Source of the DNA: a virus
Length of the DNA: 32,241 nt
Virus record (IMG/VR): IMGVR_UViG_3300046010_013256
Span: 1 to 32,241 of that record
Strand: one strand, 5' to 3'
The translations under genes and the position numbers were made by a program. This document shows positions 787 to 29,743 of the stretch, piece after piece (within the stretch, counting starts at the first letter, position 1; every line of letters begins with the position of its first letter). Below the pieces are notes generated by a model. That model was not told where the DNA came from, did no database searches, and saw only the letters and a list, made by a program, of their open reading frames with translations.

Positions 787-792
787 CGTGAC

Positions 793-1155: not shown

Positions 1156-1175
1156 TATTTGTCATGAAGGTTGGA

Positions 1176-1200
1176 GGGAGGAGGCGTTATGCCCCCTCCC
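1176..1200 (-). other. GC-rich hairpin between capsid gene and downstream gene
   Basis: Arms 1176-1185 and 1191-1200 pair over 10 bp (one G-T pair) around the 5-nt loop GTTAT. The hairpin lies just after the capsid stop codon. There is no T-run after it on the minus strand, so it is more likely an mRNA-stabilising or attenuating hairpin than a full Rho-independent terminator. It could let capsid mRNA accumulate relative to the downstream genes. Confidence 0.5.
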
Positions 1201-1216
1201 CCGCAACTTGAACTAA

Positions 1217-2410: not shown

Positions 2411-2640
2411 ACAAAAAATCCTCCTTTAAGGAATTTTAGGTTTCGGGTTCGGGACGGAGTGGTCGCGGGGCACACAGCGTGCCTGCGGTCTCCATGCCGT
2501 GGATTTCTCCTTCCCGAGCCAGGGAGGAGGCAGAGCCGAGATGGCCTGCCGTTTAAGCTCTACAAATTAAGCTGGTAGAACGGGGTTATGGTCCCGAGCG
2601 AACCCGCATGAGTTTTCGTTCCTCATACTAGAACAAAGCT
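2411..2640 (-). other. Long structured 5' leader of the capsid gene
   Basis: Non-coding stretch between the scaffold stop and the capsid start. If the promoter at 2641-2668 is used, the mRNA has a leader of about 220 nt. On the minus strand it holds an inverted repeat TCGGGA(a)GGAG / CTCC(g)TCCCGA near 2449-2518, an inner hairpin GGCAC-GCTGT-GTGCC at about 2467-2482, and ATGAG/CTCAT arms at 2608-2626. A 13-mer here (2468-2480) recurs in the other structured intergenic region at 16890-16902. No ORF with coding character is seen. Confidence 0.5.
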
Positions 2641-2668
2641 ATATTAGCAGGTGACTGTCACCCGTCAA
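2641..2668 (-). promoter_or_regulatory. Promoter for capsid gene with palindromic operator in the spacer
   Basis: Read on the minus strand: TTGACG (2668-2663), a 16-nt spacer, TAATAT (2646-2641). The perfect palindrome GGTGACAGTCACC (2650-2662) fills the spacer. Both hexamers are good sigma-70-like matches. The same geometry is seen at 8657-8684 and 25161-25188. It would give the capsid gene transcription additional to read-through from the terminase side. Confidence 0.6.
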
Positions 2669-2675
2669 AGAAAAA

Positions 2676-3866: not shown

Positions 3867-3869
3867 AAA

Positions 3870-4151
3870 TTATTGCAGCGCGGTGTTCTCCCAGGGTTCC
3901 GGGAGTTTCTTGCGCGGATCGGGTGGATCATCGGTCAATTTGACCAGGGCCCGGTGAAAATCGTAATAGCCCGCATTGCGGGCGTGTTGGAGAGCCGCCG
4001 CCGACATCGGGTCGGCATTGGGCGGCGTGGACCAACGGGGCAGGTTGCCCTTGAGCAGAACCTCCAAGGCCTCGCGCATAGGCGATACCATCAGAGCTTT
4101 GCGTAGTGTCATCCGGAGTTCCGGATCTTCGTTCCAATCTTTGAGTGTCAT
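3870..4151 (-). CDS. Small head-module protein, unknown function
   Basis: 93 aa. An upstream in-frame ATG at 4211 exists, but ATG 4151 (MTLKDWNEDPEL) is preferred because it overlaps the stop of the preceding gene as TAATG, the coupling seen throughout the window. It is soluble and helix-rich, with Pro/Asn-rich turns (PRWSTPPNADPM, DDPPDPRKKLPE). It sits between the basic 79-aa gene and the scaffold. No family recognised; presumably virion assembly. Confidence 0.65.
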   Translation of the reverse strand: MTLKDWNEDPELRMTLRKALMVSPMREALEVLLKGNLPRWSTPPNADPMSAAALQHARNAGYYDFHRALVKLTDDPPDPRKKLPEPWENTALQ

Positions 4152-4390
4152 TACCAGGCCTTGCAGGACCAATAGGCGGCAGAAAGTTTGCTGTGGTTTT
4201 TGGTATCGCACCCGTGGCGGGCGCGGAAGGATTTGCGCCGTTCCGGGATGTTCTTCTTAATCGTCATGTTGGGATCGCCAAACATAATGCTTTTGGTCTT
4301 GCCGCCCTCGGAGGCCAAGACCTTGAATTTCTTGCGGCCGTAGCCCGGCTCGCCTTTCTGGATTCGTCTGGGGTTGTTGGTTGAAGTCAT
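4151..4390 (-). CDS. Small basic Cys-containing phage protein (SFRARHxC...YWSCxxW family)
   Basis: 79 aa, strongly basic. The C-terminal half carries KSFRARHGCDTKNHSK followed by AAYWSCKAW. I recognise this conserved pattern (SFRARHxC, then a Lys-rich linker, then A-x-YWSC-x-W) from small proteins in the head regions of many marine phages. Its function is not established. Two Cys and one His could bind a metal, and the charge suggests nucleic-acid or scaffold contact. It is coupled to the following gene by TAATG and lies 15 nt after the 75-aa gene. Confidence 0.7.
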   Translation of the reverse strand: MTSTNNPRRIQKGEPGYGRKKFKVLASEGGKTKSIMFGDPNMTIKKNIPERRKSFRARHGCDTKNHSKLSAAYWSCKAW

Positions 4391-4405
4391 GAACCAGCAG
4401 ATACC

Positions 4406-4633
4406 CTACTTACTTTGTATGAACTCTTTACCGACCGAACGGCCAATCAATGCAAGTTTGCGTTTGGCCCGACCCAGACCGGTAGCTCCAAGGCGATCCA
4501 ACTCCTGCTCCGCCAGCTCCTCGGCTTGGTCTAATGTAAGTTTAGTGCGCTTGCGGTTCATTGCTGCCTTATCCAAGGCCGCACGACGATCGGGCGTAGA
4601 TCCTTGGTATCCTGTAGTTGCCATAGTCATCAT
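4406..4633 (-). CDS. Small helical head-module protein, unknown
   Basis: 75 aa from ATG 4633. AGGGGG in the end of the portal gene lies 9 nt before this first ATG, which favours it over two further in-frame ATGs at 4630 and 4624. The protein is charged and helical (DRRAALDKAAMNRKR, DQAEELAEQELDRLG), without membrane segment or recognised domain. It starts 6 nt after the portal stop and is part of the same transcript. Confidence 0.6.
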   Translation of the reverse strand: MMTMATTGYQGSTPDRRAALDKAAMNRKRTKLTLDQAEELAEQELDRLGATGLGRAKRKLALIGRSVGKEFIQSK

Positions 4634-4639
4634 AATAAT

Positions 4640-6892
4640 TTACCCCCTGATTTGAGTTAGTTTGTTGGCCACCTCGGCGTCCCGTAGTGCCAGTTTCTGG
4701 CGGACCTCGGCGACACGGAGATTGAGCTTGGTGCGATGCACTTCCTGCATCATTTGGAGTTTGAGTTGATGCTCCTGGAGTTTTTGTTCCAGTTTCTCTG
4801 TGAAGTCGTCCGTGATCGGTGCGGTCTGCTCTTGCGCTACGGCCGTCTCCGGACCCTGCGCCGCTTGCTGCTCGCGCATCTTCTGCACCTGCTTGACGCC
4901 GTTGTTGATGATCTCGCCAAACTGCTGAAGCGACTGACGCAGCATCGCGCCCTCTTCGGGAATCGTGACGTCCTGGGAAACTTGTTCGACGTGCATCGTG
5001 GTGTGGCCGAACAACGCCACCATCCCGTCGATGACGCCCTCGATCGGAGCCGCGCCACCCTCGACCGCCTCGGCCAACTGACCGAGCGCGGCCAAGTGAA
5101 CGCGGGCGTGTTCGAGGTGGTTCTCGTTGGGGAGAATCTGAATCTCCACGCCATTCTGCAGATCGGGGTTTTCCAGCATGGCCATTTTGACGTCGATGAC
5201 TGGGCGAGCCTCAGCATCCGGCGGCGGAGTGTAGCGATCGGCCAAGTCATAGCCGAAACGCGCGGCCACGCGGTCGCGAATAGCTGCTTTGCGTCCGTAT
5301 TCGTCGAAGCCCGGCATGAGCTGGGTAAGTTCGTCGGTGGCCAAGAGGCGAGCGGCCTCCGAGCCAGAACCGATGGCGCGCACTGGGCGAACCGAATCCA
5401 GGTCGATCGCGGCGATAGCCTCGGGGGGCACTCCACGCATCATGCAACGATTTTTGAATTCCAGAATCTCGCGGCTGCCGGGCTCCCCGTCGACATAACA
5501 CCCGCAGACAAAACGACGGACCACTTCCTTGAGCACGCGGCCCCAGGGTTCGTAGAAAAGATTCAGCGACGCCAAGGACAGACGGGATTGACCGGTCAGG
5601 ATCGCCTGGGTCTCGAACTTGGTTTTCTCGCGGTTGTCGTTGATCGCGGAACTGGCGTTCTCGTAGGCCCCGGTCTTGTATTGCATCTGCGCCACAAGAT
5701 CCTGAAGGAACGGCATGGCCGTCTTGGAGACATCGGGCATCGCCCGCTCGACCACGTTGATTTGGTCGGGGGCCAAAACCGAGTACGGCCCGTAATAGGT
5801 GAAGTTAAGTTCTTCGAGGGCCTGCTCGTTCTGCGGCTGAAGCAGCAAAGTCGAACTGAGCATGGCTCCATCGGCCATCTGGCAGCGGAGCCGGTTGCTC
5901 AGTTGGATCTGGGGAAAAATCTTGTAACCCAGGCCGCGAATCGAATGGTAATAACCGTTAGTGCCAATACCGAAAGGGAAAAAGACAAAAGCGCTATTGA
6001 CGTGATTGTAAATATTGCGCTTAACGCAGAGAAAATCTTCCGCTTCATTGTTTTCGAGGGTCATGTAGTAGGAGACCGTGCCGTCGAACTCCTTGACCCA
6101 AGCGTGCAGCACCTTGATCTCCGACGCTCCGGCGGTGCCGGTGAAGAGGTCATTGTTCTTGAATTCGTTTTGCAGGTGCTCCCAGTCGGTGAACGCGCCG
6201 GTATTGCCCTGCGTGGCTTTCATCAGCGCCTTGCGGACCTGCTCCACGTTCCAGCCCATGTCGGCCGCCACCTCGGGGTCCTCGATAAATTTGAAAAGTT
6301 GATGGGCCTGGTAGGAGCGCACGCAGACCGCCACCTCGATCTCGTCCTCGCAGGCCAGAGTTTTACGGGGGATCAGGAAGTCGCCGAACATCGAGACCTT
6401 CCAGCGCCAGTCGATGTCATCCTCCCAGTAAACGATGCCGATGCCGTGGGCGATGAAGTATTGGCAGAGCAGCAGATAGTTAAAATGAAACTGCGGCCAG
6501 GAACGGATGGCGCGGGTCAACTCTTCGGAAATGACTGAAGACATTTCGATGCGCTGCTTACTATCACCAAAGTCGGTCTTGAGTGTAAGGAGGTGCTCGA
6601 CCGAATGGATGAGGTCAATGTAACCGGCCATCGAGGATTCCAGGATCGCCGACGCCTCGTCGAAGTTGACGTTGCAGCGGTAGGCCTGACCACTGGTGAT
6701 CAAGTCGGTGTCCGAGTAGGGCGGGACCCCGTCGAACATGGCCTGGATCTCGGCGCGGTTACGGGAGGACTTGTCGTCGGCGTCCTTGAGCTTTTTGTAA
6801 ATCTCGTAAAGCGACTTCGAATCTTTGACGCGGGCGCGGGGCGGAGCGCCAGTCTCGGTAACATTTTCCAGAAGCGTTTCGTAGGAAGTCAT
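4640..6892 (-). CDS. Portal protein (head-to-tail connector, P22-like size)
   Basis: 750 aa, the largest structural protein here. It lies two small genes and a glycosyltransferase-like gene downstream of TerL and upstream of scaffold and coat, which is the portal position. The N-terminal half is mixed alpha/beta with many Trp/Tyr (FHFNYLLLCQYFIAHGIGI, YWEDDIDWRWKVSMFG). The C-terminal ~130 residues form a long Gln/Lys-rich coiled coil (EKLEQKLQEHQLKLQMMQE), which resembles the C-terminal barrel of long podovirus portals. Expected role: dodecameric ring at one capsid vertex through which TerL pumps DNA. The start ATG 6892 overlaps the previous stop (ATGA). The function is inferred from context and length rather than a short signature. 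Confidence 0.8.
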   Translation of the reverse strand: MTSYETLLENVTETGAPPRARVKDSKSLYEIYKKLKDADDKSSRNRAEIQAMFDGVPPYSDTDLITSGQAYRCNVNFDEASAILESSMAGYIDLIHSVEHLLTLKTDFGDSKQRIEMSSVISEELTRAIRSWPQFHFNYLLLCQYFIAHGIGIVYWEDDIDWRWKVSMFGDFLIPRKTLACEDEIEVAVCVRSYQAHQLFKFIEDPEVAADMGWNVEQVRKALMKATQGNTGAFTDWEHLQNEFKNNDLFTGTAGASEIKVLHAWVKEFDGTVSYYMTLENNEAEDFLCVKRNIYNHVNSAFVFFPFGIGTNGYYHSIRGLGYKIFPQIQLSNRLRCQMADGAMLSSTLLLQPQNEQALEELNFTYYGPYSVLAPDQINVVERAMPDVSKTAMPFLQDLVAQMQYKTGAYENASSAINDNREKTKFETQAILTGQSRLSLASLNLFYEPWGRVLKEVVRRFVCGCYVDGEPGSREILEFKNRCMMRGVPPEAIAAIDLDSVRPVRAIGSGSEAARLLATDELTQLMPGFDEYGRKAAIRDRVAARFGYDLADRYTPPPDAEARPVIDVKMAMLENPDLQNGVEIQILPNENHLEHARVHLAALGQLAEAVEGGAAPIEGVIDGMVALFGHTTMHVEQVSQDVTIPEEGAMLRQSLQQFGEIINNGVKQVQKMREQQAAQGPETAVAQEQTAPITDDFTEKLEQKLQEHQLKLQMMQEVHRTKLNLRVAEVRQKLALRDAEVANKLTQIRG

Positions 6893-7245
6893 GCCATTAA
6901 CAAATCCGAGTTAAACTCTTCGGTGACCGGGGTATTTTTGCGCAGTGCGTCTAGCCCTTTTTTCAAACGGGTGCGCTGTTGTAGCTTTTGCCAATCCGAA
7001 TCTTCTTTAGAATCGGCCTTACCCCTGGGGGCTTTTCTGCCGGGAAGCGGCGACGTCTCCGCGTCGTAGTTGTCCCACGCGCGCTGTTTTGTGGAGCCGG
7101 AATAGTTGCTCCACGCACGCTGTTTAAGTCCGCTCTTACCAGGTGTCCCAGACGAACCTCCTGCGTCGTGTCTCGACTTGTTGCGCCGAATCTCTTCGGC
7201 GATAGGGTCGCCGCTCTCCGCCAAAGCATCTAAAGCGTCTCTCAT
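6889..7245 (-). CDS. Hydrophilic 118-aa protein with internal repeat, unknown
   Basis: A charged, probably disordered protein between the glycosyltransferase-like gene and the portal, coupled to both by ATGA overlaps (7242-7245 and 6889-6892). Residues ~42-65 contain a near-duplicate unit, KQRAWSNYSGST then KQRAWDNYDAET. The C-terminal third is Lys/Glu-rich and helical. No family recognised. Its location suggests a minor head or portal-associated protein. The repeat hints at a short binding motif used twice. Confidence 0.6.
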   Translation of the reverse strand: MRDALDALAESGDPIAEEIRRNKSRHDAGGSSGTPGKSGLKQRAWSNYSGSTKQRAWDNYDAETSPLPGRKAPRGKADSKEDSDWQKLQQRTRLKKGLDALRKNTPVTEEFNSDLLMA

Positions 7246-8132
7246 GCTGCTTCCTCCAAGATTTTCTTCCGTTTACGATTCTTCGGGAAAACCAGATCGA
7301 CTTCGTCCGTGTTGAAGCGGGGCCTCTCGGCCGTCGGCTCGTCGAGCGGATCGGGATCGGGGATAAGTTTCGCCGTCTTCCCGTCGAGGTCTTCCAAGAT
7401 CAACCGGGCCAGACTGCCGTCCTTACACCCGTGACAAACCACCGCATCTGGCGCGATGGGGTTGTTGGTGTGCAGATCGGGATGCGGCATATCGAAATTG
7501 TCGGAAACGATCCGGCTGCCTTTGCGGCGGTAGTTCCGTGTTTTCCAGTTGTGCTGCATGTAAAGCGTCTCGTGCAGCTTGGGCAGCACCTCCCACTGGA
7601 CCCAGACATCGAAAGCGATGCCGCCCTCGACACGCCAAAGGGTCGAATGCTCGATAAAATTGCCCGGATAAACCGCCGTGCCGCACATGTGGTAACCCTG
7701 CACAACCAGCTCGCCCTCGGGGCCTTTGACATAGGTCGCGTGCTTCGGGCCCATGAAAATGGCGTTGCTGCGGTTATACTCGACCTGCAGCGTATCGAGC
7801 CAACCCTGCTTGAGCGGCGTGTTGTCCAACTCAAACCAATACCAGGGCATGCCGATGTCCGACGTGTTCTCGTAAAGATGCAGAATGGTCGAACGCCAAT
7901 AGAAATTCGGTCCGAGCGGCCAGCCTTTGACTCCGCCCTGGAACACGCGGATGTCGGACTTGTGGAACAAAGGACTTAGCTCGCCGAGCAATTTGTTCAT
8001 CGACGCGGCGTTCTCCTCCGTGCCCACGACAAGGAGATCGTGATGATGATAAGGCCCGAAGGCCTTGATCAGCGTCACGACGTCATCGGCCAAACGCACG
8101 TCGGCCTCGCTGACGGGAATTACGAGTAGCAT
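7242..8132 (-). CDS. GT-A-like glycosyltransferase/nucleotide-sugar binding protein in the head module
   Basis: 296 aa. N-terminal beta strands of a Rossmann-like GT-A domain are visible (MLLVIPVSEAD, HHHDLLVVG), followed near residue 105 by WYWFELDNTPLKQGWLDTL. That is the place of the acidic metal-binding signature and matches a phage family usually written as 'W-x-E-x-D-x-x-P-L-x-x-G-W'. A second conserved stretch is NAIFMGPKH. Probable role: transfer of a sugar to a virion protein, DNA or host glycan, but no substrate is known. It overlaps the 118-aa gene by ATGA and starts TAATG with the upstream gene. The C-terminal ~60 residues are Pro/Asp-rich then basic. Confidence 0.6.
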   Translation of the reverse strand: MLLVIPVSEADVRLADDVVTLIKAFGPYHHHDLLVVGTEENAASMNKLLGELSPLFHKSDIRVFQGGVKGWPLGPNFYWRSTILHLYENTSDIGMPWYWFELDNTPLKQGWLDTLQVEYNRSNAIFMGPKHATYVKGPEGELVVQGYHMCGTAVYPGNFIEHSTLWRVEGGIAFDVWVQWEVLPKLHETLYMQHNWKTRNYRRKGSRIVSDNFDMPHPDLHTNNPIAPDAVVCHGCKDGSLARLILEDLDGKTAKLIPDPDPLDEPTAERPRFNTDEVDLVFPKNRKRKKILEEAA

Positions 8133-8644
8133 TATTTTTTATCGCGCTTGTAGACCGGCATTTTACCCACCCACTTCGGAGACAACTCTTTTCCGTCCCT
8201 TAGAGCACGGGACAAATCGTTGCCAACGTCTGATAGCACACCGGTCAGTGGTCTGACCTGACGTCGACCCTGAGTATAACCTTCTCTTGCTAAAATTTCT
8301 CGCTCCCGATTAGTCAGATCGTAAACTTTTTCGGGGTCCGTTGCTTTTTCTACAATCTTTTTGACTATAGCTTTTTTCTGTTCTGGATCTTCTTTAATCA
8401 CATTGAACCAATCATCTCCGGCTTTTACAGCACGCTCAGTGTCATCTGATAACGTGACTTTTTTCCCGGTATAACGCAGTTCAGGATCCTGCCCATCGTA
8501 CCTAAACCTATCGCCTAAGCGTTCCTCAAGATCCTTGGCGCTTTTTTCACGCGACTTTTCGGCAGACTCACGCCCCGCGCTGCCTTTGCTGCGTGGTTTG
8601 GCTTTATCTAACAGCTCCTTAGCTTTTTTGAGTCCGTCGCCCAT
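8132..8644 (-). CDS. Charged helical protein of unknown function downstream of TerL
   Basis: 170 aa if started at ATG 8644 (MGDGLKKAKELLDKAK). A TTG at 8656 would add four residues but would lie upstream of the transcription start predicted from the -10 element at 8657-8662, so ATG is preferred. The protein is Lys/Glu/Arg-rich and helical throughout, with no membrane segment. It contains VYDLTNREREILAREGY and a basic tail. It follows TerL by 28 nt. The surrounding DNA (8280-8560) is noticeably more AT-rich than its neighbours, suggesting a later acquisition. Function unknown; head assembly or DNA binding is possible. Confidence 0.6.
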   Translation of the reverse strand: MGDGLKKAKELLDKAKPRSKGSAGRESAEKSREKSAKDLEERLGDRFRYDGQDPELRYTGKKVTLSDDTERAVKAGDDWFNVIKEDPEQKKAIVKKIVEKATDPEKVYDLTNREREILAREGYTQGRRQVRPLTGVLSDVGNDLSRALRDGKELSPKWVGKMPVYKRDKK

Positions 8645-8656
8645 TAGTAATCGCAA

Positions 8657-8684
8657 ATCTTACAGGTGACAGTCACCTGTGCAA
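8657..8684 (-). promoter_or_regulatory. Promoter with 19-nt perfect palindrome in its spacer
   Basis: Minus strand: TTGCAC (8684-8679), a 16-nt spacer, TAAGAT (8662-8657). The palindrome ACAGGTGACAGTCACCTGT (8662-8680) is perfect over 19 nt and also contains the TerL stop codon (8673-8675). Predicted transcription would start near 8650, leaving a leader of only about 6 nt before ATG 8644. It would drive the genes from 8644 towards portal separately from TerL. Confidence 0.6.
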
Positions 8685-10463
8685 GTTAAAAATTGCACGT
8701 CCTTTTTGATTTAGATTCCGCCCGGCCTTGGCCACCACATCTTTCTTTTTGAACCACGTCTTATAACCGGAGGTTCGATTATAGGGATCTTTGGGGGTTT
8801 TGTCCGTGGCGCTGAGTCCGAGCCGGGCCCGGCAGAGGTCAATCAGGATAAAGGCGGCATCGGACAAGTCGGGGCTTTTGCCGATCCGGGACTTCATGTC
8901 GGCCTTGCTCTCGACCCGAATCCGCATACCCGACCCTTTTTCGGTCGTATACAGCCGCTCGGTCATTTCCCGAACCAAATCGCGGCCGACTCCGAAGAGC
9001 TGTTTGTTGCGGATCAGCTCCTTGCCCGCCCACCAAAGCTCGCTCACCCGGTTGGAATACCGCTCATGGCCTGGCGTCGGATCGGTCAACGAGACATGCT
9101 TGTCACTGGCCTTGCCCCCGAAGTGGACCCGAAGGACCTCTCGGCTCCAGACCACGTCGACCACGTCCCCGAAAGGCGCGCCGCCACCGGAGGCATCGTA
9201 AGCCGCGTTTCTGGGCAGGACGCCCCAGGCTTCGCACTTGTCGCGGAACTGCCGGGCGATCTGGTAAGACCTTGGCTCTTCCTTGTTGGTCACGTCCTCG
9301 CGCAGCTCTTCGTAATGGTCCAGGCAAATGACTTTCTTGCCCTCAGCGTTAAAGCCACAAAAACCGAAATACAGGATGCTGCGGTCGCCATTGGAGCTAA
9401 ACGAAGGATCGAGAGCCGCGACTTTCGTGGGCGGTTCCAGCCAGGTCACCGTCTGGTCCGCCCCGTGGCGGATGATGTCGGCCTCGGAGTAGATGGAGTC
9501 TTCCGCACCCGTCGGACACCAAAAGCCACGATACATACGCCAATACCCTGGACTGTTTTCCCCGAGCTTGCTGGCGCTCTCGGCCAAGTTCTGTGGAGTA
9601 ATCATCCACGGATAGATGATGTGTCCGGCCTGAATGTTGGGGGACTTGTGGGCGTCAAAGTGCAGGCAATAGCCGCGCTCGGTTTCCCACTCCTCGTCGT
9701 TGACCGTTATCGAACCCCAGCCGCTCTTGGGAGTGGCGAACTGGCCGAAGGGATCGTAGTAAGACGCAGGGTTGCCGATGCCGATCAACTGAAAATGCGG
9801 GTTGTTGGATAAGTTGGTGTAGGCCGCCTCAAGGATGGACTCACCCAACTCGGGCAACTCGTCGGCGATGAAAATGACCCGCTGCTGCTTGATGCCGACC
9901 AGCTTGCCGATGGCCTCGCGTTCTTTTTTGCGTTCGGCGGCAATCAATGAAATACCGCAGCGGTCGCCGAATTGCTTCCCGCTTCCGTCGTCGAAGCGGA
10001 TCATGCCGACCGAGTCCACGAGCTTACCAGGTAAACCCGGCACCGCGCGCCACATGTCCGTGATTGCGCCCCAGATACGTTTGCGCGATTCCTTCAAACT
10101 CGTCGACGTGACCAGGACCAAGGTGTTCCAGGGCGAGCAAAGGAATTGCACGATGGCCCACAGTGCGTAGGCCTGAGATTTTCCCGACGAGGCGCAACCC
10201 GCCACGGCCAGATACTTGTGCTCGAAGGCGGCCTCGATCATGCGCTCCAGCCAAGGCGTCCATTCCACACGATTGCGCGAGTCCGGGTGGTTCCACAGGT
10301 GGTCCACAACCTCCTTGAAATGGTGCATTTGGCCCGGAGATTTTCTTGGCGGTTTTATCAAACAAGTCAGCTCGACGGTGACCATCGTGATGTCCGTGGG
10401 CCATTGTTCCCCATAGATCGAAACCGTGCGCGGGGCGGATGCTGATTTCTTTTTCGCTGGCAT
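8673..10463 (-). CDS. terL: Terminase large subunit (DNA-packaging ATPase/nuclease)
   Basis: 596 aa. The ATPase domain shows Walker A-like GCASSGKS (residues 89-96) and Walker B FIADE (198-202). The RNase H-fold nuclease shows the acidic set in ALDPSFSSNGDR (D352), AYDASGGG (D423) and PDLSDAAF (D532/D535). This is the full two-domain architecture of the motor that translocates DNA through the portal and cuts concatemers. The length is normal. The start at ATG 10463 sits inside a 7-bp inverted repeat (10456-10462 with 10480-10486) and has no clear Shine-Dalgarno sequence, so expression may be structured or low. No small subunit is adjacent; a candidate lies at 24659-25168. Confidence 0.95.
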   Translation of the reverse strand: MPAKKKSASAPRTVSIYGEQWPTDITMVTVELTCLIKPPRKSPGQMHHFKEVVDHLWNHPDSRNRVEWTPWLERMIEAAFEHKYLAVAGCASSGKSQAYALWAIVQFLCSPWNTLVLVTSTSLKESRKRIWGAITDMWRAVPGLPGKLVDSVGMIRFDDGSGKQFGDRCGISLIAAERKKEREAIGKLVGIKQQRVIFIADELPELGESILEAAYTNLSNNPHFQLIGIGNPASYYDPFGQFATPKSGWGSITVNDEEWETERGYCLHFDAHKSPNIQAGHIIYPWMITPQNLAESASKLGENSPGYWRMYRGFWCPTGAEDSIYSEADIIRHGADQTVTWLEPPTKVAALDPSFSSNGDRSILYFGFCGFNAEGKKVICLDHYEELREDVTNKEEPRSYQIARQFRDKCEAWGVLPRNAAYDASGGGAPFGDVVDVVWSREVLRVHFGGKASDKHVSLTDPTPGHERYSNRVSELWWAGKELIRNKQLFGVGRDLVREMTERLYTTEKGSGMRIRVESKADMKSRIGKSPDLSDAAFILIDLCRARLGLSATDKTPKDPYNRTSGYKTWFKKKDVVAKAGRNLNQKGRAIFNLHR

Positions 10464-11940: not shown

Positions 11941-12219
11941 ATGGCTAACCAACGCGATAAGAACAAACGCATCCTGGGCGTCTACCTGGAGCGCGAAACA
12001 TACCAAAGACTGACCAAACTGGCGGTCCGCAAGAAAACCAACGTGGCCGACCTAGTTCGGTCACACCTTGGAAAAATGGTGGAGGACGTCGTCCTCTCGC
12101 CACAAGAGCGAGCTGACATCAAAAAAGAACAGTCGGACTTCGAGAAAAAACAAAAAGCCAAACTGGCCAAAGAACGCTCGCTCCAAAACCGCCTGGACCG
12201 ATATAAAAAAGATCTCTGA
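11941..12219 (+). CDS. Ribbon-helix-helix DNA-binding protein
   Basis: 92 aa. Residues ~8-45 (KRILGVYLERETYQRLTKLAVRKKTNVADLVRSHL) have the beta-strand/helix/turn/helix pattern of CopG/Arc-type ribbon-helix-helix repressors, shown here only as the boundaries KRILGVYL and DLVRSHL. The C-terminal half is a highly charged helix (KKEQSDFEKKQKAKLAKER). It is 32 nt downstream of the integrase behind an unstructured CA-rich leader without a clear Shine-Dalgarno site. A dimeric transcription factor for the integrase or early region is likely; it is a candidate ligand for one of the palindromes. Confidence 0.7.
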   Translation: MANQRDKNKRILGVYLERETYQRLTKLAVRKKTNVADLVRSHLGKMVEDVVLSPQERADIKKEQSDFEKKQKAKLAKERSLQNRLDRYKKDL

Positions 12220-12340: not shown

Positions 12341-12487
12341 ATGTACAAAGAGGTAGAACTCGAAATCGACAATGAAACACTGACCAAACTCGACAAGCTC
12401 GCGGCCGAACAAGGTATGACGCGGGACGAACTCATCAACCGAAGCCTCAAGGCCGAGTTAGATGCGCTTGAACCGGTTAACGCTTGA
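12341..12487 (+). CDS. Small ribbon-helix-helix-like protein (48 aa)
   Basis: Starts at ATG 12341 (MYKEVELEIDNETLTKLDKL) and ends at TGA 12485-12487. A short beta strand (VELEID), then helix (ETLTKLDKLAAEQ), a GMT turn and a second helix (RDELINRSLKAEL) match the minimal CopG/Arc ribbon-helix-helix fold. Its last 26 nt overlap the next gene in another frame. It is preceded by the hairpin pair at 12271-12312. Together with the 92-aa protein it makes two RHH regulators in a row. A toxin-antitoxin antitoxin is an alternative, but no toxin partner is evident. Confidence 0.6.
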   Translation: MYKEVELEIDNETLTKLDKLAAEQGMTRDELINRSLKAELDALEPVNA

Positions 12488-12794
12488 GGCTGGCAACAGC
12501 GTTCGCCTGACGATGCTGTCCGATGGACGGATGCGCATCGACATGGAGGACGTGGAGCCGGGGCAATTGCTGCAGGACGATCGTGACCCCATCTACGACG
12601 TACGCAGCGCTGCCGACCGACTCCAGACCACGCCGCGACAAATCCGCGCTCTGATGCGTCAGGACAAAAACCCCCTGCCCTTTTACAAGATCGGCGGCAA
12701 AGTCCGGTTCCGTGAATCCGACATCCAGGGATGGATCGAGTCGGGACTCACGGCCTCGGCCCGCCGCTGCAGGGCGCGACTTCTCGCGGCATGA
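12462..12794 (+). CDS. Excisionase-like helix-turn-helix protein
   Basis: 110 aa. The central segment YDVRSAADRLQTTPRQIRALM, then FYKIGGKVRFRESDI and W, is the MerR/excisionase-type winged HTH (helix_turn_helix_17). It recognises DNA through the first helix pair and the 'GGKVRF' wing. The first ~40 residues form a separate acidic strand-rich part, so internal ATGs (12513, 12543) are possible starts. Proximity to the integrase supports a recombination directionality or early regulatory role. It overlaps the next gene by ATGA (12791-12794). Confidence 0.7.
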   Translation: MRLNRLTLEAGNSVRLTMLSDGRMRIDMEDVEPGQLLQDDRDPIYDVRSAADRLQTTPRQIRALMRQDKNPLPFYKIGGKVRFRESDIQGWIESGLTASARRCRARLLAA

Positions 12795-13237
12795 TCATCG
12801 CAATCGACCCAGGTAAGTCGGGCGGTTTCGCCTATGGTGTAGATTTAGCTGCACCACAGGTCTGCAACATGCCCGACACCCTGGGCGATCTCGCCACGCT
12901 CCTACGCCAATTCCCCTCCGGCGGGGTCGTCTACCTGGAAAAGGTCGGCGGCTACGCCGGAGGTCGGGGGGCTCCGGGTTCGGCCATGTTTAATTTCGGC
13001 AAGGGTGTTGGTCACCTCGAAGCGATAACATACATGCAAGGCTTCGAAATGCGGCAGGTGGCCCCGCAGAAGTGGCAAAAGGCCCTAAGCCTCGGCAACT
13101 CGAACGGCATGTCGAAGACCGAGTGGAAGAACAAGTTGAAGGAGCGCGCCCAGCAACTTTACCCCAAGGTCACGGTGACCCTGGCGACTGCGGACGCCTT
13201 ACTTATTTACCATGCTGCCCATCGGGGGTTAATTTGA
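12791..13237 (+). CDS. RuvC-like Holliday junction resolvase/nuclease
   Basis: 148 aa from ATG 12791. It shows the RNase H-fold RuvC pattern: IAIDPGKSGG with D6 at the end of strand 1, VVYLEKV with E50, a Gly-rich loop (GGYAGGRGAPGS), and a C-terminal TADALLIYHA with D135. The length is usual for phage RuvC-like resolvases. It would cut four-way junctions or branched replication intermediates before packaging. It is coupled both upstream (ATGA) and downstream, where the helicase starts with TTG overlapping its stop as TTGA. Confidence 0.8.
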   Translation: MIIAIDPGKSGGFAYGVDLAAPQVCNMPDTLGDLATLLRQFPSGGVVYLEKVGGYAGGRGAPGSAMFNFGKGVGHLEAITYMQGFEMRQVAPQKWQKALSLGNSNGMSKTEWKNKLKERAQQLYPKVTVTLATADALLIYHAAHRGLI

Positions 13238-14817
13238 AGACCCTCTACGCCGCTCAAGAGGAGCACGTTAACCGATTGGTTAATGCGCTAAAAAAGCACC
13301 GGGCCGCATTGGATTCGTCGGAGACTGGCACGGGCAAGACCGTCTGTGCCATCGAGACAGCCAAGCGGCTCGGTGCTTCCATTTTTGTCGTCTGTCCGAA
13401 GATCGTCATCCCCTCGTGGGAGCGGACATGTGTTGAACAAGGTACGAGGCCCCTTGGCATCCTCAACTACGAGAAGCTGCGCACCGGCAAGACGCGCTTC
13501 GGGCACTGGAGCGGCAAACAGTTCGAGTGGAAGATTCCGAACGACTGTTTGATCGTCTGGGACGAGGTGCACAGGTGCCAGGGGATGTGGAGCCAAAACG
13601 CGAAGATGCTCATCGCGGCCAAGCCGTGGCACAACCTGTTGCTTTCCGCCTCCGCCGCCGAAGACCCGACCGAGATGCGGGCCAGCGGATTCATCCTCGG
13701 GATTCATTCACTTTCGAATTTCTACAACTGGGCCAAGGCGCACGGGTGCGTGATCAACCCGTGGGGCCAGCTTGAGTTCAAACACCGCGAGTCCTGGGCC
13801 CTGGACAAGATCAACTACGAACTCTACCCCGAGCACGGCGACCGTATGACACGGGCTCTGCTGGCCGAGCACTTCAAGGAAACACGCATCGTCACCGACC
13901 CGATTGACTTCGGGGACAGGGGGCAGATCAAAAAACTCTATGAAGAAATGGACCAAGAATTGTCCGCCCTCGAACAGCGGATGCAAAACGACAGCAAAAA
14001 CAAAGCCGCGCAAAAACTCGTCGCGCAGCTCCGAGCAAGACAGGCAATCGAACTGGCGAAAGTACCAGCGACGGTTGAAATCATTGAGGACGAACTCCAC
14101 GCCGGAAATTCGGTGGCCGTCTTTGTCAACTTTGCGGCTACGATTGAAGCCCTTGGGCAAAGGCTCAAAGTCCCCTACGGCAAAATCGAAGGCGACCAAA
14201 AAACCGAAGAGCGACAGTTGGTCGTGGAACGATTTTCAAGCGATGCTGATCAAGTCGTCCTCTGCAACATCGCGGCCGGAGGACTCGGAGTATCGCTTCA
14301 TGACCAACGAGGCGTAAGACCGCGCACCGCACTGATCTCGCCGACCTTCAACGCCAAGGATCTTTTGCAAACGCTGGGCCGGGTCGACCGTGCCGGGTCT
14401 ATGACAAACTCGGTGCAGCGGATTTTGTTCGCGGCCGGGACGGTCGAGGAGAAAGTCGAGGCCTCCGTCAAGCAGAAACTGAAAAATTTGTCCGAGCTGC
14501 ACAAAGGTGACTTGACACCCACAACAGATTCCCTAGTGTTGACGCCACAAATGACACCGCCCGCCTCACAACCGGTAGTGCCGTCGGCTGAACCGGCCCA
14601 CGCCAAGCACGGCCCCTCCTCCCTCAAATACAAGGAAATCTGTCCGTCTTGGCAGAACCGTGAGGGGTCCAACTGGGCCTCGGACAAGGGCGACCGCATC
14701 CATGAGGCCATGGAAAAGGACGACCCGTCCAAGTGCGCCAATGACGAGGAACGGTCGATCTACGAGTCCCTGCAGGGGTATGTCGGGCAGATCATCCGGA
14801 GGAAAACGGGCGTATGA
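13234..14817 (+). CDS. SNF2/SF2-type helicase fused to the N-terminal piece of a Cas4-like nuclease
   Basis: 527 aa from TTG 13234, which overlaps the preceding stop (TTGA); no ATG fits the domain start. Helicase motifs: Walker A SSETGTGKT (K35), DEVH box (110-113), motif III LSAS, motif V IAAGGLGVSL, motif VI QTLGRVDRAG (379-388). Residues ~455-527 are foreign to helicases: HGPSSLKYKEICPSW, then SDKGDRIHEAME and DEERSIYES. This is the beginning of DUF2800/Cas4-type PD-(D/E)XK nucleases, with the first cluster Cys (C470) and the conserved His (H490). The rest of that nuclease is encoded at 15140-16015. Role: DNA translocase in replication or recombination, working with the nuclease. Confidence 0.85.
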   Translation: MKTLYAAQEEHVNRLVNALKKHRAALDSSETGTGKTVCAIETAKRLGASIFVVCPKIVIPSWERTCVEQGTRPLGILNYEKLRTGKTRFGHWSGKQFEWKIPNDCLIVWDEVHRCQGMWSQNAKMLIAAKPWHNLLLSASAAEDPTEMRASGFILGIHSLSNFYNWAKAHGCVINPWGQLEFKHRESWALDKINYELYPEHGDRMTRALLAEHFKETRIVTDPIDFGDRGQIKKLYEEMDQELSALEQRMQNDSKNKAAQKLVAQLRARQAIELAKVPATVEIIEDELHAGNSVAVFVNFAATIEALGQRLKVPYGKIEGDQKTEERQLVVERFSSDADQVVLCNIAAGGLGVSLHDQRGVRPRTALISPTFNAKDLLQTLGRVDRAGSMTNSVQRILFAAGTVEEKVEASVKQKLKNLSELHKGDLTPTTDSLVLTPQMTPPASQPVVPSAEPAHAKHGPSSLKYKEICPSWQNREGSNWASDKGDRIHEAMEKDDPSKCANDEERSIYESLQGYVGQIIRRKTGV

Positions 14818-15143
14818 GTGACACGCCACAAACAGATGCTCAGCTAACGAGCTTTTTGTCGATCAGCAAGCTCGGCAGGCACTTCACCAATCGCACCGGC
14901 ACGGTCAGTGCCAAGTTTGCCCGCAAACTGGAGCGGAGCATCTACGAGTGTGAAGCGGAGATCAAAGATCTGACGATCCGCGCTCAAAAGGCGGAGCGGG
15001 AACGCGACCTGATGAACTCCTATTTCGAGGCCCTGAAAGTCGAAGCCAAAAAACTGCGCCGTGAATTGGGTGACGCGCAAATCGAATCCAAAAACTGGAA
15101 AACGGCATGCTTCGCTTACCGGGAGGAGGCCGCTTCTAAATGA
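14814..15143 (+). CDS. Coiled-coil 'TPxTDA' small phage protein interrupting the nuclease
   Basis: 109 aa, ATGA-coupled on both sides. It begins MSDTPQTDAQL, close to the 'TPRTDA' start of many small phage proteins. It continues with FARKLERSIYECEAEI and a long charged helix to the end (KAERERDLMNSYFEALKVE). No catalytic motif is seen. It sits exactly between the two parts of the Cas4-like nuclease, so it looks like an inserted cassette. Function unknown. It might be neutral cargo or might hold the two nuclease pieces together. Confidence 0.7.
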   Translation: MSDTPQTDAQLTSFLSISKLGRHFTNRTGTVSAKFARKLERSIYECEAEIKDLTIRAQKAERERDLMNSYFEALKVEAKKLRRELGDAQIESKNWKTACFAYREEAASK

Positions 15144-16015
15144 CCACCATCGTCAAAGACCTTCGCGAGATCAGGGTCAAGATCGACCTGGGTTCGGGAC
15201 GCAGCACCTTCGGGACGTGTGACCGCTTTATTATTTACGCGGACGATACGGCTGACGCCATCGACTACAAGACCGGCTACGGCGCGATCGACGACGCGGA
15301 GATCAACATCCAGGGCCAGGCCTACGTCCTCGGGCTCTTCCAGAAATTTCCCCACGTCAACGAGATCACCATGTGGTTTTTGGTCCCAGCGCGGGACGAG
15401 GTTAGTACGCACACCTATACCAGGAAAGACATGTCGACCATTAGACTGCGTGTGTCGACCGTGATTGAGCGGGCGGAGGCCGGTGGGGGCTTCAACCCGC
15501 AAGCGGGAGTGTGCGATTACTGCGCCTATCAGGCGAAATGTCCCGCGCTGGCGACCAAGATTTTAACAATCGCCCAACGCTACCAGGAGGAAGGACTGCC
15601 GATTCCGGAATCTGTGCACGGCAGCGAGCAGGACGATCCTGAAAAAGTCGCAGCCCTCATGACCCTGGTCCCGATCGTCGAGTCCTGGGCCACCGGGGTC
15701 CGCAAACGCGCGACCGAGATGGCCGTCGATCAAGGTCTGGATCTCCCCGGCTTCAAGGTCATCGAACAAAGCAAACCGCGTTCGATCACCAGCGCGCTCG
15801 GGGCCTTCGAGGCCGTGCAGAGCGAGATCGAGCTGCGCGAGTTCCTGACCTGCGTGGACAAAGTTTCGTATCCAAAACTCGAAGAACTTTTTGCCCAAAA
15901 AGCCCCTCGGGGCTCGAAGGCGAAAACCCGGCTTACTTTGGAGGGTAAGCTGCGGGACCTGGGAGTCCTTCAAGACGAAGGCGTCTCCTACCAACTCCGC
16001 AAAAAGAAAACCTAA
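15140..16015 (+). CDS. C-terminal part of Cas4/RecB-like PD-(D/E)XK nuclease
   Basis: 291 aa. It has FGTCDRF (D28), AIDYKTGYG (D42-x-K44), and a QGQAYVLGLF helix (Q58/Q60), which are the core catalytic motifs of the RecB family. It also has CDYCAYQAKC (C125, C128, C134), the C-x2-C-x5-C end of a Cas4-type iron-sulfur cluster. The first cluster Cys and the RecB-type His are missing here and are found at the end of the helicase gene. The last ~120 residues resemble the extra domain of DUF2800 proteins. Probable role: exonuclease in recombination or end processing, next to an ssDNA-binding protein and PolA. It may only work as a complex with the helicase fusion. Confidence 0.8.
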   Translation: MTTIVKDLREIRVKIDLGSGRSTFGTCDRFIIYADDTADAIDYKTGYGAIDDAEINIQGQAYVLGLFQKFPHVNEITMWFLVPARDEVSTHTYTRKDMSTIRLRVSTVIERAEAGGGFNPQAGVCDYCAYQAKCPALATKILTIAQRYQEEGLPIPESVHGSEQDDPEKVAALMTLVPIVESWATGVRKRATEMAVDQGLDLPGFKVIEQSKPRSITSALGAFEAVQSEIELREFLTCVDKVSYPKLEELFAQKAPRGSKAKTRLTLEGKLRDLGVLQDEGVSYQLRKKKT

Positions 16016-16036: not shown

Positions 16037-16801
16037 ATGGCAACTGTATCGTTCAAAGAAACGGCCCCCGAGGCCGTCAACCAGGCTCCGGCGACGGAGT
16101 CCAAAATCGTGCCCGCAGGTGACAGTCACCCCGTGGCAATAACCAAGTCTGAAGCCATGACGGTGCCCGCCGCTCGCGGCATCACGGGCGAGATCACCAT
16201 GCGCGACATCCAACTGCCGCGCGTCAACCTGGTCCAGAAGATCGGCGAATTGGCCGACTCGGGCCTGACACCGGGCGTCTTCATGCTCAACAAGGAAGCG
16301 ATGCTTTCCGACGGTAAGACGCCGCTAAGCATCACGGTCCTGCGCCTGCACAAGCAATACCGGCAGAAACTGGAACAAGGGGACCAGTCCATGCCGCAGG
16401 TCTATGACAAGCAGGAGCAGGTCATCGCCAACGGGGGCAGCCTCAAATGGGGTGAGCCGAACTACTTCCAGGAGATCGCGCACCTCTCGCTGGCCATCGA
16501 AAAACCGGCCAACCTCAAAGAGGAGTTCGCGGCCTTCTTCTACCGCGAGCACGCAAGCAAGCAATACACGCTGGCAGTCTATACTGTCGCGTCGTCTGCC
16601 TTCACCTCGCTCGGCAAGAAGATCATCACCGCCGGTTACAACCAGTTGTCCAGCGGACTCTGGACCGGTAAATGGCAGCTCACGAGTTCCCTGACCAAGG
16701 GGGCCAAGGGCACGTGGTTTATCCCCGAGGCCAAGTTCGACGGGCTGCATTCCAAGGAGGATGCGGCGTTCTTCGAGTCCATGGTCGCCAACACTCAGTA
16801 A
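16037..16801 (+). CDS. Probable single-stranded-DNA-binding/recombination accessory protein
   Basis: 254 aa from ATG 16037 after a CA-rich leader. The N-terminal ~50 residues are low-complexity. The body carries ITMRDIQLPRVNLVQKIG and GLTPGVFMLNKEA, a pattern I know from phage replication-module proteins near PolA. A beta-rich C-terminal half follows (YTLAVYTVASSAFTSLGKK, GLWTGKWQLTS). Location between the Cas4-like nuclease and PolA matches DUF2815-type ssDNA-binding proteins in other phages. The assignment is mostly contextual. A palindrome copy lies within the codons at 16117-16130. Confidence 0.5.
   Translation: MATVSFKETAPEAVNQAPATESKIVPAGDSHPVAITKSEAMTVPAARGITGEITMRDIQLPRVNLVQKIGELADSGLTPGVFMLNKEAMLSDGKTPLSITVLRLHKQYRQKLEQGDQSMPQVYDKQEQVIANGGSLKWGEPNYFQEIAHLSLAIEKPANLKEEFAAFFYREHASKQYTLAVYTVASSAFTSLGKKIITAGYNQLSSGLWTGKWQLTSSLTKGAKGTWFIPEAKFDGLHSKEDAAFFESMVANTQ
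16117..16130. repeat. AGGTGACAGTCACC palindrome near the start of the putative SSB gene
   Basis: The core 16118-16130 is a perfect 13-nt copy of the recurrent palindrome, inside codons for Ala-Gly-Asp-Ser-His-Pro. No -35/-10 pair at the standard spacing is seen on either strand. It falls in the low-complexity N-terminal segment, where an inserted operator would cost little. Confidence 0.6.
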
Positions 16802-19837: not shown

Positions 19838-20024
19838 ACAAGTTCTCAAGACCCTGGGCGGCTGGGAGCCGCTGGATGACTACATCAACCGCACCAAGTG
19901 CCTGGTGCTGCGCTGCGTCCATGAAGAGGACGGCGTGGTCGCCTTTTTGGAACACGACCCCTGGATTTCGAACCTACCCACCTCCGTCATCGACGGAAAA
20001 ACCTACATACCCACACAACCATGA
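19830..20024 (+). CDS. 64-aa protein of unknown function, GTG start
   Basis: GTG 19830 gives MVEQVLKTLGGWEPL; no ATG is available near the start and the overlap with the previous gene is 8 nt. The protein is mixed alpha/beta with two Cys (KCLVLRCVHEED). Its last bases, CCACACAACCATGAA (20011-20025), recur at two ATGA junctions near 27.8 and 28.0 kb. It is coupled to the primase gene. Confidence 0.5.
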   Translation: MVEQVLKTLGGWEPLDDYINRTKCLVLRCVHEEDGVVAFLEHDPWISNLPTSVIDGKTYIPTQP

Positions 20025-22162
20025 AATCTTTTTACCTCCCCAATATGTCCGCTTCGGACACGAAACCCCTGCCCGTCAATCCCTGGGAAGTGACGAGCGA
20101 CCCCTACCCCGTCTCGACCAAGGATGATTACGAGAAGTGGATCAAGGACAAGGACACCGACCATTGTTTCTACACCGCGTTCGAGGGACTCAATCCGCAC
20201 CGCCGCATCAGCCTGGAGAACCCCGCGCGCTGGATGCACGGGCTGGTCGCCGACTATGACGCCAAGCTGCCCGCCAACTTCGACCTGGGTGAACTGATCG
20301 AACGCTGCAACCCCGATGCTCTCCCTATAGCGATCAGCAAGACCTTCAGCGGCAACGCCCGCATCGTCTGGGAGTTCGACCGGCCGATCGCCGTGGACTG
20401 CCCGGAGATGACCAAGGCGGTCATGAAGGAGATGGCCCGCAAGTTCAAGCTGGGCAAGATCCTGCCGGGCATCGACGAGTGCACTTTCCGCACCAATCAG
20501 TTCTACGAGATCGGCTATGACTGGCAGCTCGTGCCGGGTTCCACGGCAGTGCGCGAAGATGTTCTCGGAGACCTTTTGGTGGAAGCAGGCAACAAGGTCA
20601 ACTGGAACAAGGTCGGTGAAACCGACACCGAGATCCCGATCGAGAAGATCGCGGCCGAGGTGGAGGCGCGCTGGCCGGGCCGGTGGCCGGGGGAATTCAA
20701 ACTGGGGGCCAGGGGGCCCACGTTCTGGCTCGATGACGGCGTGGACCGCGTGGGCTGTCAGGTGGGCGACCACGGCATGGTCTGCTACACCGACCGCGCG
20801 GGCAAAGCGTTTGTCACCTGGGGCGAACTACTGGGCAATTCCTTCGTCGAGAAATTCCGCGAGGAAGTGATCGGCCGCGCCGTGATGGATTTCTACTACG
20901 ACGGTCGCGCCTACTGGCGCAAGAACGGGACCAACCGGTGGTATGACTTCAAGGTCGAGGACGTCAGCCGCAAACTGCGGGTCAACGGGATCAAGACCGA
21001 CTCCAAGAAAGGCGCATCCCAACTCGACCGCGTGGTCGACGCCATCCAGACCCACCAGCGGGTCGACGCCGCCGTGCCGATCCTCTTCACCGAGGAGGAG
21101 ATCGTCGACATCGGCAACGACCGTTTCCTCAACACCAATTTCCGGAAACCCGTGGAACCGGCCGACGACGGCTCGGAGATCCTGTGGCCCTACATCAAGA
21201 GCTGGCTTTGGCCAGTCTTCGGAGACGAACAGCTCCCCTACTTCCTGGCCTGGTTCAGCAGATTCTACGCCGGGGCGATCGCGAGCGAACCGACCCAGGG
21301 CCAGGTGGTCGTGGTGGCCGGAGGCCCGAGCCAAGGCAAGACGCTGCTTAACTGGCGGGTGGTCGGGGCGGCCCTGGGAGGCTTCGCCGATGCCACACCC
21401 TACCTGCAGGGGAAAACCTCCTTTAACAAGACAGCGGCCGAGCACCCGGTGTGGAGTCTGGACGACCCGACCGGACAGATCGACTACGACAAACACAAGA
21501 TGTTCGGCGAGGCGATCAAGGCCCACGTGGCCAATCCACGGGTGAGCTACCACCCCAAGCACAAGGACTCGATCGAGATCCCCTGGTACGGGCGGCTCTT
21601 CATGACCTGCAACACCGACCCGCAATCGCTGTCCGTGCTGCCCCCGATGGACAATGCGGTGGCCGACAAGATCATGCTCTTCAAGTTCACCGACTACCAA
21701 CATCCCTTCGGCAAGAACGCAGAAGTTGAAGAAACCATTGCGGGGGAACTCCCGCACTTTTTGCGGTGGTTGCTGGATTATTCTCCGCCCGCCCATGTCG
21801 TCTGGGATGACAACAAGCGTTTCGGGGTCAAACCCTACCACCACCCGGAGATGCTCCATACCGCTGTCGAGGACAACCCGGCGACCAAGCTGATCGAAGT
21901 GATCGACCGCTGGGCCACCTCGATGCGGCGCGACAGTAAGGGCGTGGCCGAATGGAAGGGCACGGCGACCGACCTTTACACGAGCCTCATGGGCTTGGAC
22001 GAAGGGAATCTAAGGCCACTGCTCAACCGCTACACGGCGGTTAGGCTCGGCCGCGAACTGCGAACCCTGGCCCAACGGGGCGGGACCCGCGTCCTCAAGT
22101 GCAGCAAGAAGGCCAACGTGAGCCGCTACACGATTTCCGTGGAAGACAAGGAGAGCTGGTAG
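20021..22162 (+). CDS. PrimPol-type primase / SF3-like helicase
   Basis: 713 aa. The N-terminal third has LVADYDAKL (D78, D80), followed by SKTFSGNARIVWEF, consistent with the acidic pair and following strand of an archaeo-eukaryotic-type primase (PrimPol). The C-terminal half has Walker A AGGPSQGKTLL (K440), Walker B-like VWSLDDPTG and FMTCNTDPQS (sensor Asn), as in D5/SF3 replicative helicases. It would unwind and prime DNA for PolA at the origin, probably in the adjacent gene-free region. The length is typical for phage primase-helicases. It starts by ATGA overlap and is the last gene of the plus-strand replication operon. Confidence 0.85.
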   Translation: MKSFYLPNMSASDTKPLPVNPWEVTSDPYPVSTKDDYEKWIKDKDTDHCFYTAFEGLNPHRRISLENPARWMHGLVADYDAKLPANFDLGELIERCNPDALPIAISKTFSGNARIVWEFDRPIAVDCPEMTKAVMKEMARKFKLGKILPGIDECTFRTNQFYEIGYDWQLVPGSTAVREDVLGDLLVEAGNKVNWNKVGETDTEIPIEKIAAEVEARWPGRWPGEFKLGARGPTFWLDDGVDRVGCQVGDHGMVCYTDRAGKAFVTWGELLGNSFVEKFREEVIGRAVMDFYYDGRAYWRKNGTNRWYDFKVEDVSRKLRVNGIKTDSKKGASQLDRVVDAIQTHQRVDAAVPILFTEEEIVDIGNDRFLNTNFRKPVEPADDGSEILWPYIKSWLWPVFGDEQLPYFLAWFSRFYAGAIASEPTQGQVVVVAGGPSQGKTLLNWRVVGAALGGFADATPYLQGKTSFNKTAAEHPVWSLDDPTGQIDYDKHKMFGEAIKAHVANPRVSYHPKHKDSIEIPWYGRLFMTCNTDPQSLSVLPPMDNAVADKIMLFKFTDYQHPFGKNAEVEETIAGELPHFLRWLLDYSPPAHVVWDDNKRFGVKPYHHPEMLHTAVEDNPATKLIEVIDRWATSMRRDSKGVAEWKGTATDLYTSLMGLDEGNLRPLLNRYTAVRLGRELRTLAQRGGTRVLKCSKKANVSRYTISVEDKESW

Positions 22163-28727: not shown

Positions 28728-28900
28728 ACACACCCCTGATCATCCAAACCGCCGCCCACTTCAACGCCACCCATGACTACGACATGAACGCCGCGCTCGA
28801 ACTATCATCGCTTGTGCTGCGCCATGCCCACCAAGTGCAACTGGCCCGCAAAGAAGCGGCCGATCCGCAACTCTCCTTACCCTTACTCGACACACCATGA
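28724..28900 (+). CDS. 58-aa helical protein
   Basis: ATG 28724 (MNTPLIIQTAAHFNATHDYD) to TGA 28898-28900, with ATGA overlaps at both ends. Ala/Leu/His-rich helices (NAALELSSLVLRHAHQVQL) form a probable helical hairpin. Unknown function. Confidence 0.55.
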   Translation: MNTPLIIQTAAHFNATHDYDMNAALELSSLVLRHAHQVQLARKEAADPQLSLPLLDTP

Positions 28901-29742: not shown

Positions 29743-29743
29743 A
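29723..29743 (+). repeat. 21-bp direct repeat, copy 1, at an ATGA junction
   Basis: Identical to 29905-29925. It covers the codons HTLTR, the stop and the next start codon. Copy spacing is 182 bp. Confidence 0.8.

Follow-up and report, generated by a model that had tools for sequence, protein, structure and literature searches.

The window considered here is the whole of a virus record (IMG/VR record IMGVR_UViG_3300046010_013256; 32,241 bases, whose numbering is used for all gene coordinates given below), and it carries a nuclease of the DUF2800/Cas4 type that is encoded in two pieces. Its plus strand reads, in order, a RuvC-like Holliday junction resolvase gene (12791-13237; phrog_1770, E 1e-18), the adjoining helicase gene (13234-14817, plus strand; 527 amino acids [aa], TTG start), a gene for 109 aa, a gene for 291 aa, a gene starting at 16037 and the gene of a family A DNA polymerase. 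The first piece of the nuclease is the tail of the helicase protein (chain A), the second is the 291-aa product (chain B), and the 109-aa gene lies between them as a cargo gene. This split, shared by a lineage of uncultured phages, has a single origin from a fused helicase-nuclease ancestor; the genes held in the cut have turned over since, and both pieces are under purifying selection.

Chain A comprises a superfamily 2 (SF2)/SNF2-like helicase (residues 1 to 425), a variable linker (426 to 452) and the N-terminal piece of the nuclease (N-piece; 453 to 527), and its TTG start overlaps the stop codon of the upstream resolvase-like gene (TTGA). The helicase matches Helicase_C and ResIII above the Pfam cut-offs, as well as the DNA helicases of phrog_62 (E 2e-39), and its motor is of the SF2 type. 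An earlier reading of the window from its letters and open reading frames (ORFs), here called the sequence-only reading, had described it as an SNF2 helicase; this agrees with its best solved relatives, which are SNF2/Rad54 proteins (E 7e-8), but not with the SNF2-specific Pfam model (SNF2-rel_dom), which scores 11.6 bits, below the cut-off of 24.9. No match to the helicase was found among isolated phages at 1e-10.

The N-piece (14590-14814, plus strand) occupies the last 70 or so residues of the helicase ORF, which read ...HGPSSLKYKEICPSW...GDRIHEAMEK...QGYVGQIIRRKTGV, and it contains the conserved cluster Cys C470 and the conserved G486xxxH490, with C470 and H490 at the positions that the sequence-only reading had given. 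That reading had taken the tail for the N-terminal part of a DUF2800/Cas4-type nuclease, and the relatives bear it out: the N-piece is 82-83% identical to the corresponding part of fused relatives, where both parts share one open frame, and stand-alone DUF2800 proteins have it as their own N terminus; the sequence-only reading had likewise described intact family members as one chain. The N-piece is assigned to the nuclease because these fused and stand-alone relatives carry the homologous part, since profiles barely detect it; alone, it has no Pfam match and a weak match to phrog_69 (positions 102-143, E 0.14).

Chain B (15140-16015, plus strand; 291 aa) provides the nuclease core and C-terminal part, hereafter the C-half. 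It matches DUF2800 (PF10926) with 83.5 bits (cut-off 21; E 2e-23) at profile positions 117-317 of 368, PDDEXK_1 with 37.5 bits (cut-off 22) at positions 125-247, and the exonucleases of phrog_69 at positions 193-417 of 501. Since the matches begin at position 117 of DUF2800 and 193 of phrog_69, the N-terminal third is missing from this chain. The profile check that had been proposed for both products was thus successful for chain B, but not for the N-piece. The catalytic D, DxK and Q motifs and the Cys group do lie in this separate gene, as first noticed from the letters: the active-site residues are D28, D42xK44 and Q58xxxY62, among which D28, D42, K44, Q58 and Y62 are invariant with relatives, and the Cys group is C125xxC128xxxxxC134. 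Together with C470 of chain A, the last three Cys form the four-Cys layout of an iron staple, whose columns are invariant in 27 relatives, and the N-piece and the C-half, taken together, align along the whole DUF2800 family with all invariant residues present. Comparison of the C-half with isolated phages gave distant matches only (<30% identity), and a profile search of cellular genome contigs with the C-half found no homologue.

The cargo gene of the window (14814-15143, plus strand; 109 aa) encodes a coiled-coil-like product with a TPQTDA N terminus and is ATGA-coupled on both sides, in agreement with the sequence-only reading, overlapping each neighbour by 4 nucleotides (nt). At the first seam (14814-14817, plus strand), the stop codon of the N-half overlaps the cargo start, with a GGAGG-like site just upstream in CATCCGGAGGAAAACGGGCGT; at the second (15140-15143, plus strand), the cargo stop overlaps the start of the C-half. 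The description of the insert as foreign is not supported, as its GC content is near average (0.54 versus 0.575 for the window), its ratio of nonsynonymous to synonymous substitutions (dN/dS) is about 0.1 when compared with the copies in two other split loci (L003 and L004), which indicates purifying selection, and it is but one of the six sets of cargo that replace one another in the cut. Its assignment to a known family was considered and rejected, the Pfam and PHROG matches being sub-threshold and coiled-coil-like; among TPxTDA proteins of other phages, none was located at a split nuclease.

When IMG/VR was scanned, with C-half, N-piece and helicase as queries, the genes were found in three states. 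In the separate state (for example loci L098-L114, L120, L121, L123 and L124), a helicase of ~430-452 aa and a complete nuclease of ~371-402 aa are encoded with a 4-nt overlap or with small genes between them. In the fused state, a single protein of 780-898 aa is found, both in near relatives that are 72-77% identical to the window (L005, L006, L008, L019-L022, L025, L026 and L028, the last of which runs off its contig) and in distant ones (L030, L085-L089, L091 and L094-L096); the near relatives are the unsplit, insert-free genes that the sequence-only reading had proposed to look for. In the third state, the gene is split inside the nuclease (n = 9: the window, L001, L002, L003, L004, L007, L017, L018 and L029; L001 has the same sequence as the window at this locus and perhaps comes from the same virus). 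L052/L074 and L090, whose sequence ends before the junction, were left unscored. Because the same cut occurs in nine loci from several IMG/VR records and with different inserts, chance or assembly error is very unlikely, and an assembly artefact was rejected. As a separate observation, small unrelated genes also lie between the helicase and the complete nuclease in L098, L100, L104, L108, L111, L113, L117, L120 and L124; their presence in separate-gene relatives indicates that accessory genes accumulate at this point of the operon even when the nuclease is not split.

The split loci are monophyletic in the helicase tree (support 99/97) and in the nuclease tree (96/92), each of 32-33 rows, and in both trees they form the sister group of the near fused genes and are nested among fused lineages; in an earlier helicase tree of 19 rows the split group was weak (27/34), and it was resolved once outgroups were added. 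The most parsimonious order is a fused gene that was split once and then underwent cargo turnover. The sequence-only reading had instead pictured half a nuclease captured by a helicase, which the trees do not support, as they place the fusion of a whole nuclease first and the split later. The opposite direction, in which the split is ancestral and the near fused genes arose when the cargo was lost and the frame exactly restored, has to be weighed because the near fused loci are sister to the split ones, which leaves the direction to be decided by outgroups, and several separate-gene relatives have cargo genes between the helicase and the complete nuclease; but the outgroups L085, L089, L091, L094, L095 and L030 (40-57% identity) are all fused, and the separate-gene relatives have a complete nuclease and never this internal cut, which makes such a course of events highly improbable.

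The order of the neighbouring genes suggests how the cut may have been made. In the near fused loci examined, the resolvase and helicase genes are separated by a zinc (Zn)-ribbon gene of 89-91 aa, whereas in every split locus examined there is no Zn-ribbon gene upstream and the resolvase runs directly into the helicase. In L017, L018 and L029, a Zn-ribbon homologue (~50-58% over some 50 residues) lies inside the nuclease. The first insert was therefore probably the Zn-ribbon gene formerly just upstream of the helicase, which would have made the cut by moving ~1.6 kb downstream, or by an equivalent swap of adjacent blocks, and the branch of the window would later have exchanged it for the 109-aa gene.

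The same cut holds six cargo sets of one to four small genes, spanning 322-1006 nt: 109 aa in the window, L001 and L002; 110 + 154 aa in L003 and L007; 101 + 109 aa in L004; a 71-aa Zn-ribbon + 156 aa in L017; 124 + 144 + 71 aa in L018; and 99 + 72 + 78 + 60 aa in L029. Around these changing sets the seams are constant. In all split loci, the start of the first cargo gene shares 4 nt (ATGA or GTGA) with the stop of the N-half, a GGAGG or GGAGGA site lies inside the end of the N-half, and the last cargo gene overlaps the C-half start by ATGA, while the joints within the cargo sets vary, with a short gap in L017. Furthermore, the last residues of the N-half are RRKTGV or KRRTGK in the nine loci, the first ones of the C-half are MTTI or MTHI, and the cut costs no nuclease sequence relative to the fused genes, so that the insertion was as clean as the sequence-only reading had it. 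With regard to the cargo genes themselves, we could notice a common C-terminal module, TGYW...GPFAGWSQEKMVR.ADELWE, in those of L003 (4540-5001; 154 aa), L018 (5358-5789; 144 aa) and L029 (5078-5374; 99 aa); the parts ahead of it differ and are coiled-coil-like, as if modules had been exchanged within cargo genes.

Neither HNH, GIY-YIG nor LAGLIDADG gave a match above cut-off in any cargo gene, HNH_5 in the Zn-ribbon gene of L018 being far below it, and the insert was rejected as a homing endonuclease, intein or intron, since no such family is found above cut-off and the inserts are ordinary back-to-back genes. The same evidence bears on the possibility that a full-length enzyme is restored by joining, the insert being removed by splicing of the RNA or the protein or bypassed by the ribosome. 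Introns and inteins commonly interrupt phage genes, and split ribonucleotide reductases are often of this kind (PMC3653736), but here the inserts consist wholly of genes with their own starts, stops and GGAGG-like sites and lie in differing frames, neither inteins nor homing endonucleases match the cargo above cut-off, and the two pieces have a few extra residues at the joint, including the start Met, that are absent from fused genes. We give restoration by joining hardly any credence.

The selection acting on the two pieces was estimated by NG86, the N-piece being taken as residues 453-521. For split genes, its dN/dS is 0.058 between near pairs and 0.122 between far ones, and fused pairs give 0.069; the corresponding values of the adjacent linker are 0.74, 0.37 and 0.60, and the C-half has values of 0.09-0.12 in split pairs. 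The similarity of the N-piece values between split and fused genes indicates that the orphan piece is about as constrained as it is within one chain. Moreover, an alignment of 27 stand-alone and fused nucleases has 23 invariant columns, 10 in the N-piece (H, A, P, S, L, Cys, GxxxH, A and E, where C18 corresponds to C470 and G34xxxH38 to G486xxxH490) and 13 in the C-half, and the split loci retain all 23. No stop or frameshift was found in the nine split loci.

These results count against the possibility, raised by the sequence-only reading, that the nuclease is dead, with the insertion having broken the enzyme and the pieces persisting as relics or being carried along with the helicase and the operon. 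A cut within a conserved domain could plausibly be fatal, and decay can be slow; yet dN/dS is equally low for both pieces in split and fused genes at synonymous divergences of up to pS 0.3-0.6, the neighbouring linker evolves nearly freely, and the active-site residues are conserved on both chains, so that a dead enzyme is strongly disfavoured and in our judgement very unlikely.

The structural context of the cut was examined on an AlphaFold2 model of the nuclease domain of the fused L006 protein (mean predicted local distance difference test score [pLDDT], 85.9; predicted template modeling score [pTM], 0.66). In this model, the junction falls in a loop (residues 70-73) between a helix (52-69) and a strand (74-88). 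The model indicates that the nuclease domain has a RecB/Cas4-like fold: with Foldseek, its matches in the PDB are Cas4-family ACE1, AdnA, Cas4 SSO0001, MGME1 and RecE (E 1e-6 to 1e-3, with modest TM-scores), and among viral models they are DUF2800 proteins. A sequence search of the PDB with the nuclease profile gave one credible lead, again ACE1 (9iab and 9iac), plus chance matches to designed repeat proteins.

When the C-half of the window is modelled alone, a nuclease-like core is kept, and the Cys region has a pLDDT of 41-53 versus 81-85 in the fused model. The retained core, the location of D, DxK and QxxxY all on chain B, and the observation that the Cas4 protein Pcal_0546 still cleaved DNA after loss of its Fe-S cluster (PMC4176176) would fit a chain B that acts as an independent nuclease, with the N-piece turned into a helicase tail that binds DNA or has a regulatory role. 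On the other hand, the N-piece is constrained at precisely those residues that are invariant in helicase-free stand-alone nucleases, as expected if it completes a nuclease, and in its absence the Cys region of the C-half is modelled poorly. We therefore consider it unlikely that the chains work apart, though less so than the alternatives discussed above.

As both halves are under strong selection, two chains most likely come together to form the enzyme, and we regard a working two-chain helicase-nuclease, with the cut as a hotspot of gene insertion, as the probable reading of the locus. According to this reading, a single insertion of a small gene would have interrupted the fused frame, in a loop on the surface of the nuclease domain, and the cut would since have served as a docking site, flanked by two constant seams, for accessory genes that come, go and replace one another. 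Coupled translation of one mRNA would yield first the helicase with the N-piece, then the cargo and then the C-half. Chain A would supply the helicase and the first helices of the nuclease, with one cluster Cys and the His of GxxxH, and from chain B would come the nuclease core, which holds D, DxK and QxxxY as well as the remaining three cluster Cys; the helices of the N-piece would pack on the core of the C-half as they do in the fused model, tethering a Cas4/RecB-type nuclease to the helicase. Coupled translation, assembly in trans, activity and a metal cluster across the two chains are thus what we infer from the arrangement and conservation of the genes. More tentatively, and with somewhat less than even confidence, we propose that the locus is a stable docking site inside a replication enzyme, where accessory genes turn over and the two chains reassemble into the enzyme every time, and that the metal cluster, to which the helicase chain would contribute one Cys and the nuclease chain three, joins the motor to the nuclease.

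Several points weigh against the two-chain reading. Complex formation and activity are supported indirectly, by selection and conserved residues, and the selection estimates come from only nine split loci, some of them near-identical. The N-piece could be kept for a role linked to the helicase. Moreover, the alignments behind the two models differ in depth (15 rows for the C-half, 27 for the fused domain), so that the drop in the Cys region is only suggestive. Lastly, no second DUF2800 gene was found in the nine records, including a split record of 70.8 kb, but these records may be fragments, and a second nuclease may be encoded elsewhere.

The closest precedent is that of the split genes of T4-type phages, namely, nrdA-a/nrdA-b of Aeh1, split by mobE, T4 gene 60/39, split by mobA, and gene 43A/43B of phages 25 and 44RR (PMC2988022, PMC3653736); the NrdA halves of Aeh1 and the polymerase halves of phage 25 work or copurify in trans (PMC2988022, PMC3653736). 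As in the locus described here, an inserted gene cuts one coding region in two, stop and start codons overlap at the insert (nrdA/mobE), and unsplit orthologues exist in related phages, which here are the near fused genes. The T4-type inserts, however, are homing endonucleases or untranslated spacers, whereas here they are ordinary small genes with complete turnover between constant seams, and it is a Cas4-type cluster site that is divided between the chains.

The cluster of Cas4 and AddB is held by four Cys, one of them N-terminal and three C-terminal (PMC3466216, PMC4176176); its loss inactivated SSO0001 but not Pcal_0546 (PMC4176176), and a DUF3799 nuclease with the same four Cys holds zinc (PMC3466216). 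These iron-staple nucleases share the RecB-like fold and the motif layout of our two chains combined, but they have the four Cys in one chain, while here one lies on the helicase chain and three on the other. A DNA motor coupled to a Cas4/RecB-type nuclease domain is also found in AddAB, AdnAB and UvrD-Cas4-like fusions (PMC5704561, PMC3466216); the described machines use superfamily 1 motors (AddAB, UvrD-like), different from the SF2 motor and the two-chain nuclease domain found here. Likewise, the DUF2800 (PF10926) phage exonucleases (phrog_69) encountered in this analysis and in annotated phages are single chains or are fused whole to the helicase, and here the domain is divided. A literature search of partial coverage found no description of split DUF2800 or Cas4 genes, so that novelty is provisional; with this proviso, the locus appears distinct from known split genes in the kind of insert, the turnover at fixed seams and the division of the cluster site between helicase and nuclease chains. 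The natural series from separate through fused to split genes, with one cut and six insert sets, makes the breaking and refilling of an enzyme gene by phages directly studiable and would extend the phage "genes in pieces" from insertions of homing endonucleases to a site that accepts ordinary accessory genes. A further prediction is that the helicase-nuclease is held together by a metal cluster spanning its two chains, which could be tested with two small proteins.

As regards the surroundings of the locus, the 254-aa product of 16037-16801, between the nuclease and the DNA polymerase, has a sub-threshold match to Pam3 gp34 (25.2 bits; cut-off 27), and its position suggests a DNA-binding replication protein. 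A 713-aa ORF at 20021-22162 is weakly similar to phage DNA primases (phrog_1829, E 1e-5). Near the start of the rightward operon there are two small genes, one similar to an Arc-like repressor (11941-12219; E 0.002) and one with an excisionase-like helix-turn-helix (12462-12794; phrog_66, E 3e-8). On the minus strand of positions 1-10463, five large leftward ORFs were tested against PHROG and gave just weak matches to virion structural or unknown proteins; this near-absence of matches points to a very diverged phage structural module. Finally, a chain of small plus-strand ORFs at 28897-29924 shows ATGA overlaps at 29306, 29530 and 29739. Since 4-nt overlaps thus occur also at 29306-29742, this type of joint is ordinary, and what is unusual is its place inside an enzyme domain.

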